A DNA stretch of 50,664 bases, from positions 138,826 to 189,489 of the IMG/VR virus record IMGVR_UViG_3300025162_000019. One strand, written 5' to 3'. Of the stretch, positions 1,929-3,653 are shown piece by piece. Below the pieces are notes generated by a model. It did no database searches, was not told where the DNA came from, and worked only from the letters and a program-made list of their open reading frames with translations. The translations under genes were made by a program, and so were the position numbers. Numbering within the stretch: position 1 is the first letter of the stretch; each line of letters begins with the position of its first letter. Source of the DNA: a virus.

Positions 1929-3344
1929 TTATATTCTGGCCCATTTAACAATCAAATCGTTGACTTCTGTAAACCAACCATTCTTTTCCTCATGCTCATA
2001 TTCATAAATAAAATCTATAACATGATCCGAAAAGCCATTTATTAATGTCCAGTTTTTATCATATGTTAGACCTGAATCATATGTTGCAATGTTCATAATA
2101 TAACCCTTACTATTATTAGAAGGTAATGCTCTACCATCTGTTGATTGCTCATCTGTTATAACAATCACTCTATCATACTCTTCTTTACTCTTTAAATCGT
2201 TCAAAGAAGTTCTTAAAGCTGTTCCCATGTTAGGCTGATTATTAATAATAGAATCAGCTAATTCAAAACCATGATAGTTATTTCCTACAAGGGCTAATCT
2301 ATCAGAAAAGGTATATACAACACATTCATCGCACACTTCTCTTAAAAGAATAGCAAGTGCTGTTGCGGTATCAATCCTTTTTGTTTCAGACTTCCTTGCA
2401 GTAGCCCAAGTCATTGAACCAGATACATCAACAAGTAATGCAGTTTTACCAGATAACTTGTTAAATGTTCTAACACACTTTAACATCATATCTTCAAGTT
2501 CTTTCTTAATATCTACATCTGAAATATTCTTATATGCAGTATAGAATCTGAAAGGGAAAAGTTTTTCAACATTAGCCTTATGTAAAGCATCTATAATCGT
2601 ATACTTATCAAGACCAGCTTCTATCATACCTCTTATATTTTTGATCAAAGCCATAGCACCTAACTTATTATTCTTAATCAAATCCTCAAAAACATCTTTC
2701 TTATTTTCACCGGAAGATAAACGCACTTCCCAAGTATCAGGGATTTCTAATTTAGAATATTCACCATAAAATGCCTTGATTGGAAATCCTGCTTTTGTTA
2801 CTGTTGGAAAGAAATCTTTATTTACCAACTGAGCAAACATCTTTCCTTTTGTCATATTTTCAGGTTTAGCGTGGCACAAAAATGCCGCATCCCTCAACTG
2901 AACAGAGCCAGGGCCACTATCATTCTTATTCCATTTAGCTATCTGATACTCATTGAACTTATTGAAAGCCTTTGAAATACCTTTCTTTACCTGAGCAGAC
3001 AAAGAAGAATCTTTATCACTACCAGACCAATATAGTTTTAAGAACTCAATTATTTCATCAGGTCTTTGAATAATCTGATTTAAAGTATTACTTAAAATAG
3101 AAGGGGTATATGTCTTAGTATTACGAGCAAGCTCACGAATTAAAAGCAATGGTATTTTTCTTAAATGGAACTTATCTCTAGCTTCTATCGCAAGAGAGGC
3201 AACCATATAAGGATCGCATTGTTTAACCAATTCTTTTATTCTATTTGTACAAGATGCGCCTGATTCATAAAATGAATTTTCATTTAATAGGCAAGATAAT
3301 ACTGAACGTCTTAACTGAGCTTCTGAACTTAAATTTTCAAACAT
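1929..3344 (-). CDS. TROVE (Ro60/Rsr-like) RNA-binding protein with vWA domain, 471 aa
   Basis: Ro60-family proteins bind Y-type RNAs and misfolded noncoding RNAs on a ring of HEAT-like repeats and carry a C-terminal von Willebrand A domain. The helical TROVE region covers roughly the first 290 residues, and the phrase TWEVRLSSG is typical of bacterial and phage members. The vWA domain follows, with an intact metal site DVSGS about residue 306. I chose the ATG at 3344 because AAGGAG lies 8 bases upstream. An in-frame extension to a TTG at 3425 is possible (27 extra residues), and its sequence lies in the repeated leader. Bacterial homologues often sit beside Y RNA genes; here a structured, repeat-rich leader lies just upstream. 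Family confident; role in the phage inferred to be RNA binding or quality control. Confidence 0.85.
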   Translation of the reverse strand: MFENLSSEAQLRRSVLSCLLNENSFYESGASCTNRIKELVKQCDPYMVASLAIEARDKFHLRKIPLLLIRELARNTKTYTPSILSNTLNQIIQRPDEIIEFLKLYWSGSDKDSSLSAQVKKGISKAFNKFNEYQIAKWNKNDSGPGSVQLRDAAFLCHAKPENMTKGKMFAQLVNKDFFPTVTKAGFPIKAFYGEYSKLEIPDTWEVRLSSGENKKDVFEDLIKNNKLGAMALIKNIRGMIEAGLDKYTIIDALHKANVEKLFPFRFYTAYKNISDVDIKKELEDMMLKCVRTFNKLSGKTALLVDVSGSMTWATARKSETKRIDTATALAILLREVCDECVVYTFSDRLALVGNNYHGFELADSIINNQPNMGTALRTSLNDLKSKEEYDRVIVITDEQSTDGRALPSNNSKGYIMNIATYDSGLTYDKNWTLINGFSDHVIDFIYEYEHEEKNGWFTEVNDLIVKWARI

Positions 3345-3653
3345 AACATATTCTCCTTGAGTAAAGATTTGAGGAACAAATTGCATTGAGTGTTTTTTCA
3401 TTTTGTAGTTGAAGTAACTCAACACTCCGCCATCAAATTATATTAAAATAGGGAACAAACAGAATGAGCGTCTTTTCATTTCAAGTGAAGTATCTCATTC
3501 TAACACCACTATAATCTTTTTTATTAAAGAGGAACAATTAAAAAAGAGATTATCAGGAGTTTCACCCGAATCCTTTTATTGTTACATTTTTGATTATTAG
3601 TCAAATTTCAAGTGAAGTAACTCTTCTTATACACCATCTTTAACTTTGAATAT
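3345..3653 (-). ncRNA. structured repeat-containing leader of the TROVE gene (three related hairpin units)
   Basis: About 300 bases without a convincing gene. On the minus strand three related units occur with the core GAGWTACTTCA: near 3600-3625, 3470-3500 and 3400-3428. Unit 2 is enclosed by a 7-bp stem GAATGAG/CTCATTC and unit 3 by GAGTGTT/AACACTC, so pairing is kept while the stem sequence changes. A TTGTTCC element follows each unit (near 3530, 3450 and 3375). Another hairpin (AGGATTC...GAA..TCCT, about 3555-3575) and an A6/U6 stem lie between units. A consensus sigma-70 promoter stands directly upstream. This could be an untranslated leader, an autoregulatory site for the TROVE protein or a Y-RNA-like ligand. 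Confidence 0.5.

Follow-up and report, generated by a model that had tools for sequence, protein, structure and literature searches.

The TROVE gene and its leader

The stretch of DNA analyzed here (the window; 50,664 nucleotides, positions 138,826 to 189,489 of the virus record IMGVR_UViG_3300025162_000019) encodes a TROVE (Ro60-like) protein on its minus strand, preceded by a leader (3644-3367) in which three RNA units, A, B and C, lie between a promoter and the TROVE start codon at 3344 (Table 1). The protein matched the profiles PF05731 (E = 9e-23) and phrog_850 (E = 2e-39) as well as PF25045 vWA_Ro60, the last slightly below its cut-off (E = 2e-5), and the Ro60 structures 9nen (E = 2e-9) and 1yvp (E = 7e-6) in the PDB. 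The TROVE protein has the invariant DxSGS, GT and TDEQS, and H158, within FLCHAKP, aligns with H187 of Ro60, a residue important for Y RNA binding. A second record (L001, IMGVR_UViG_3300022555_000017; 127.5 kb) carries a TROVE protein that is 100% identical, preceded by the same leader.

Table 1. Features of the TROVE locus in the window
Feature	Position	Strand	Details
Promoter, sigma-70	3682-3654	-	TTGACA-17-TATAAT, extended -10 TG; 12/12 match
Unit A	3644-3523	-	R1 match 3637-3531, 27.3 bits, E 1e-4; structure finder
Unit A, outer helix	3644-3637/3530-3523	-	GUUAAAGA/UCUUUAAU, 8 bp; structure finder
Unit A, bulged U	3636	-	
Unit A, UACUUC	3619-3614	-	
Unit A, payload	3613-3549	-	65 nt; two predicted hairpins, each 5-bp stem/7-nt loop
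Unit A, UUGUUCC tail	3537-3531	-	conserved
Unit B	3512-3448	-	minimal, 18-nt loop; R1 match 3509-3452, 52.2 bits, E 8e-11
Unit B, helices		-	outer AUAG/CUAU; inner UAGAAUGAG/CUCAUUCUG
Unit B, bulged U	3508	-	
Unit C	3438-3367	-	minimal, 19-nt loop; R1 match 3433-3373, 32.2 bits, E 7e-6
Unit C, helices		-	outer AUUUGA/UCAAAU; inner GUGUUGAGU/ACUCAAUGC
Unit C, bulged U	3432	-	
GAGWTACTTCA cores	3623-3613; 3496-3486; 3420-3410	-	one in each unit
TTGTTCC	3537-3531; 3458-3452; 3379-3373	-	one after each core
Shine-Dalgarno AAGGAG	3358-3353	-	8 nt 5' of ATG 3344; from sequence
TROVE gene	1929-3344	-	471 aa; TROVE ring region, vWA domain with DVSGSM

An earlier interpretation made from these letters alone (the sequence-only reading) had placed a consensus promoter at the start of the region, three copies of GAGWTACTTCA upstream of the TROVE gene and TTGTTCC behind each. 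All three observations were correct: the promoter matches sigma-70 at every position and has the TG before its -10, the core occurs exactly three times in the window, always on the minus strand, and TTGTTCC stands at each of the three places. From the position of the promoter, transcription is predicted to start near 3647, a few bases 5' of unit A. Similar promoters were seen in other phages (e.g. loci L057, L086, L074 and L020), where 6-9 nt separate the end of the -10 from the first unit; a match of at least 9/12 preceded 11% of first units, compared with 1% of later units and 2% of shuffles. AU-rich linkers of about 10 nt separate the window units. A tRNA search of the window returned none; the phage record has 18 tRNA genes above the cut-off (47141-61029), with about 80 kb between them and the TROVE operon.

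Structure of the units

Each unit consists of an outer helix, a single bulged U, a GG/CC pairing, an internal loop (YGWA//..UUGUU), an inner helix of 7-9 bp, the motif UUACUUC and a payload. A structure finder run over both strands of the whole window returned exactly these three, and among 2000 dinucleotide shuffles of the leader none contained two or more units and five contained one. The sequence-only reading had enclosed two of the cores in 7-bp stems. Pairing around both was upheld; for unit C, the proposed GAGTGTT/AACACTC gave way to the pairing listed in Table 1, which is in register with the relatives and with the predicted fold. The third, upstream copy is stem-enclosed as well; it belongs to a full unit, whose insert measures 65 nt and whose outer helix has 8 bp. 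The outer helix, present in all three units, had been missed.

Unit A scored lowest of the three. Two weak hairpins, UUUGA(CUAAUAA)UCAAA and UCGGG(UGAAACU)CCUGA, are predicted in its payload, which is no more stable when folded than shuffled sequence (z = -0.09), has no recognizable T-loop or D-loop signature and gave no match to the YrlA family of Rfam (RF02553). It may derive from a tRNA-like module by decay or be a payload of another sort. Fold energy was unremarkable both for the whole leader (z = -0.66) and for single units (z = -1.4 to -1.7), so the case for the units rests on comparison.

Covariation and linkage to TROVE genes

We collected 14 viral TROVE loci at first and later 80 viral and 50 bacterial ones, and these relatives had the same upstream pattern as the window. 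A covariance model (R1) was trained on 42 minimal units of other phages and bacteria, with the window excluded. Applied to the window, R1 found exactly B, C and A, the next match having an E-value of 1.7; over the 189-kb record, B and C were the only matches above chance, and unit A was missed at that search's first look.

An improved finder demanded an outer helix of at least 4 bp, T[AG]GYG, TACnnC, an inner helix and TTC[CT]. In 136 non-redundant TROVE loci (804 kb) it detected 306 units, spread over 104 loci and all on the TROVE strand; the opposite strand had none, nor did mononucleotide-shuffled loci contain any. The 32 loci lacking a unit by this finder may have a divergent Y RNA, a Y RNA elsewhere or a contig end that cuts the array.

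The inner helix was paired in 91% of cells in our first sets, a value that is partly circular because the finders used for those sets demanded a helix. This circularity does not affect the R1 matches in the window, the sequence-only pattern search described below or the outer helix in 161 units, the three of the window included, that were picked without the outer helix as a criterion. The inner four positions of the outer helix were paired in 99, 99, 97 and 93% of these units (42-64% expected), with all four Watson-Crick types at those positions; the R2-e1 pair was formed in 99% (G-C 129, A-U 30), and a helix of at least 4 bp was present in 90%, compared with 16% when partners were swapped. 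An earlier lower-stem pairing (alignment A2, columns 3-5 with 55-57) was dropped for the outer helix and R2-e1 after the covariation analysis. The sequence-only reading had suggested a covariance-model search of related phages and had named loss of the stems in relatives as a result that would speak against it; the model built from relatives recovers all three window units, and the stems are kept, the outer helix covarying across the 161 units.

A search with a sequence-only pattern yielded 70 distinct matches in 2.9 million viral contigs, of which 74% had an outer helix of at least 4 bp (4% with swapped flanks) and 79% an inner helix (24% when swapped). TROVE was nearby in 40 of 52 structured loci, and all 42 units there lay on the TROVE strand; among the other 12 records, three had TROVE elsewhere and nine had no TROVE match, several of these being short fragments, yet two were 82 and 142 kb long. 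The elements common to the family, here called the handle, are the outer helix, an invariant bulged U, [GA]G facing C[CU], a loop of YGWA versus about GYUUGUU, the inner helix of 7-9 bp and UUACUUC, followed by the payload.

Short repeated motifs that precede a gene and have inverted-repeat arms could also be DNA-level operators or duplicated coding sequence, the latter having been named in the sequence-only reading as its own refutation. Both are highly improbable: orientation relative to TROVE is strict (306 to 0), the helices covary around a fixed bulge and enclose variable payloads, and the units lie downstream of the promoter. Moreover, the open TROVE frame extends no farther upstream than 3425 and so cannot encode A or B. 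We rejected the coding alternative altogether, since AAGGAG stands 8 nt before ATG 3344 and the protein starts of relatives do not include the 27-residue extension.

Payloads and the relation to YrlA

The handle carries payloads of several classes. In viral loci, 72 were minimal (up to 26 nt), 69 were at least 60 nt long with a T-arm motif, 43 measured 27-60 nt and 21 were long without a T motif; the corresponding numbers for bacterial loci, mostly of Acidobacteriota, were 14, 57, 12 and 15. A further class of about 105-175 nt with the same handle and no T-arm motif was seen in seven loci of Acidobacteriota (L098, L099, L101, L103, L110, L114 and L140) and in the viral loci L064, L068 and L078. 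In several relatives a clear T-arm followed by a D-arm lies inside the inner helix, that is, the permuted tRNA-like module of YrlA. The consensus of this class has 30 pairs, 27 of which show compensatory changes, and in many relatives the tRNA-like payloads differ within one array.

RF02553 scored the tRNA-like units of relatives at about 25-56 bits, below its cut-off of 69. Sub-threshold matches also occurred in control genomes, probably at tRNAs, and are weak alone; their weight lies in positional agreement with the finder. In Xanthomonas phage 10KY502B three RF02553 matches (E down to 9.5e-14) coincide with its three finder-called tRNA-like units; its minimal unit is invisible to RF02553. 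In a Gordonia phage the match (E = 4e-10) carries UUACUUC and GUUCC. Relatives with a permuted tRNA-like payload are, as judged by sequence, YrlA-type Y RNAs. Two deposited tRNAs overlap finder units, tRNA-Gln of Caulobacter phage CcrColossus (L165:1583-1650; unit L165:1585-1737) and tRNA-Thr of 10KY502B (L164:2271-2338; unit L164:2273-2392); in both cases all or part of a Y RNA has probably been annotated as a tRNA. One viral contig has a permuted tmRNA match (RF04321, L005:6593-6955, E = 1e-19) near TROVE in a dense tRNA cluster.

The window units share with YrlA the position beside a Ro/TROVE gene and the succession of outer helix, internal loop and inner helix; the long stem that YrlA forms by pairing its 5' and 3' ends, its Ro-binding module, is matched by the two helices of all three. 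YrlA also resembles the units of relatives in its permuted T-arm, acceptor-like stem and D-arm. In contrast, this tRNA-like domain (T, acceptor and D arms) is absent from B and C and unrecognizable in A, and Rfam gave nothing relevant in the window at gathering or permissive thresholds, RF02553 included. Since the units keep the handle and lack the tRNA-like domain, they would be a variant of the YrlA kind rather than YrlA proper. The sequence-only reading had set them apart from YrlA as not tRNA-like. As a description this holds for the minimal B and C and for A, which has no T-loop; as a contrast it misleads, because many relatives have, on this same handle, a permuted tRNA-like payload of the YrlA type.

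We therefore read the leader as an operon-encoded array of three YrlA-type phage Y RNAs followed by the gene of their Ro60/Rsr-like TROVE partner, with a probability of about 0.87 on the sequence comparisons. The earlier suggestion of a Y-RNA-like ligand is thereby strongly supported, by the covariation, the same-strand linkage to TROVE and the relatives that match YrlA in Rfam.

The tRNA-like payloads of many relatives, differing within one array, and the location of several arrays inside tRNA gene clusters would also suit decoys, that is, tRNA mimics that absorb tRNA-cleaving defence nucleases or tRNA enzymes of the host, with TROVE as carrier; the tRNA-like domain of YrlA has been proposed as a competitive inhibitor in Salmonella (PMC7790460). 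We regard this as unlikely, since the minimal units do not mimic tRNA, payload A lacks the signature of a T- or D-loop and the 18 tRNA genes of this phage lie some 80 kb away.

Other Ro-associated RNAs offer further comparisons with the proposed Y RNA array. In vertebrate Y RNAs the Ro60 site is a lower-stem helix in which one strand has a single bulged nucleotide and the opposite strand a bulge (PMC4726728). The handle likewise combines one bulged nucleotide with an internal loop, but the bulged base is U here and C there and the conserved sequence differs; we claim no sequence homology. The Salmonella rsr-yrlBA-rtcBA operon (PMC7790460, PMC9879122) also joins more than one Y RNA gene, namely two, to a Ro gene; there, however, the Y RNAs follow rsr, and we found no RtcB in this phage record. 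The Ro-like gene of Streptomyces phage JustBecause is directly preceded by a gene for an RNA ligase, an arrangement (L250:1070-1822) consistent with a link to RNA repair. Listeria phage CKA15 (P100-like) has putative Y RNAs, ncRNAs that are abundant and lie close to a distant homologue of Rsr (PMC12282133), much as the window units lie near TROVE. Listeria phage P100, considered as an experimental anchor, gave no R1 match above chance and no PF05731 match, so a common origin does not follow. Phage Y RNAs have already been reported in mycobacteriophages, according to a citation in PMC12282133.

Position of the units relative to TROVE

Units in relatives stand in tandem, up to eight per locus, and none starts inside a TROVE match. 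Similar mixed arrays accompany TROVE genes in soil bacteria and in dozens of other phages. In Bacteroides phage crAss001 three units lie downstream of the TROVE gene (L168:3933-4637).

In most loci with upstream units, one of them lies no more than about 100 nt from where the TROVE match begins (median 105); in the window, about 8 nt separate the end of unit C from the Shine-Dalgarno sequence. Such spacing would be expected of a cis-acting leader whose units stay in the TROVE mRNA, so that bound TROVE, especially at C, represses its own translation or stability. This proposal, raised in the sequence-only reading, is compatible with the Y RNA reading and possible for unit C. As the general role of the units it does not stand, since in many loci they lie far upstream (acidobacterial arrays extend 700-1700 nt upstream) or only downstream of TROVE (four loci, crAss001 among them; 20 more have units on both sides). 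Nor would a leader have an obvious use for tRNA-like payloads, and overall we doubt autoregulation.

A model for the Y RNA array

In the model that follows from the Y RNA reading, the array would be driven by its promoter and co-transcribed with the Ro protein gene, and the Y RNAs would act in trans as gates and tethers. Host endonucleases would probably cut the linkers, giving RNAs of about 120, 65 and 72 nt. Each RNA may use its conserved handle to bind the outer surface of the TROVE ring, as suggested by the biology of Ro60/Rsr and their Y RNAs. In YrlA the basal stem binds Rsr and the tRNA-like domain binds PNPase, which results in tethering (PMC8394870); Y RNAs with a payload would tether a partner in the same manner. 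Payload-free units can do no more than fill the binding surface and so would gate the access of other RNAs to the ring. During infection, the system would probably control RNA decay or serve in quality control.

More tentatively, and at somewhat less than even odds, phages and some bacteria may build their Y RNA arrays on a single Ro-docking handle with swappable payloads: permuted tRNA mimics, hairpins of 27-175 nt, or none. Payload-free members would then be plugs that set the state of the ring, their siblings would bring partners or baits, and the present array would comprise two plugs and one unusual payload.

Implications

Ro60 proteins and Y RNAs occur in many bacterial lineages, few of these Y RNAs have been studied and their role is poorly understood. 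The literature searched holds no account of tandem arrays with payload-free Y RNAs; key primary papers lay outside that search, so that priority can be checked only in part. The handle (bulged U, GG/CC, YGWA//UUGUU and UUACUUC) provides a search model for Y RNAs overlooked by Rfam, among them payload-free Y RNAs and some that were deposited as tRNAs. In phages and Acidobacteriota, TROVE genes are commonly accompanied by arrays of several Y RNAs whose payloads differ. The natural minimal Y RNAs would allow a direct test of gate versus tether, which the cultured phages CcrColossus, 10KY502B and crAss001 make feasible.
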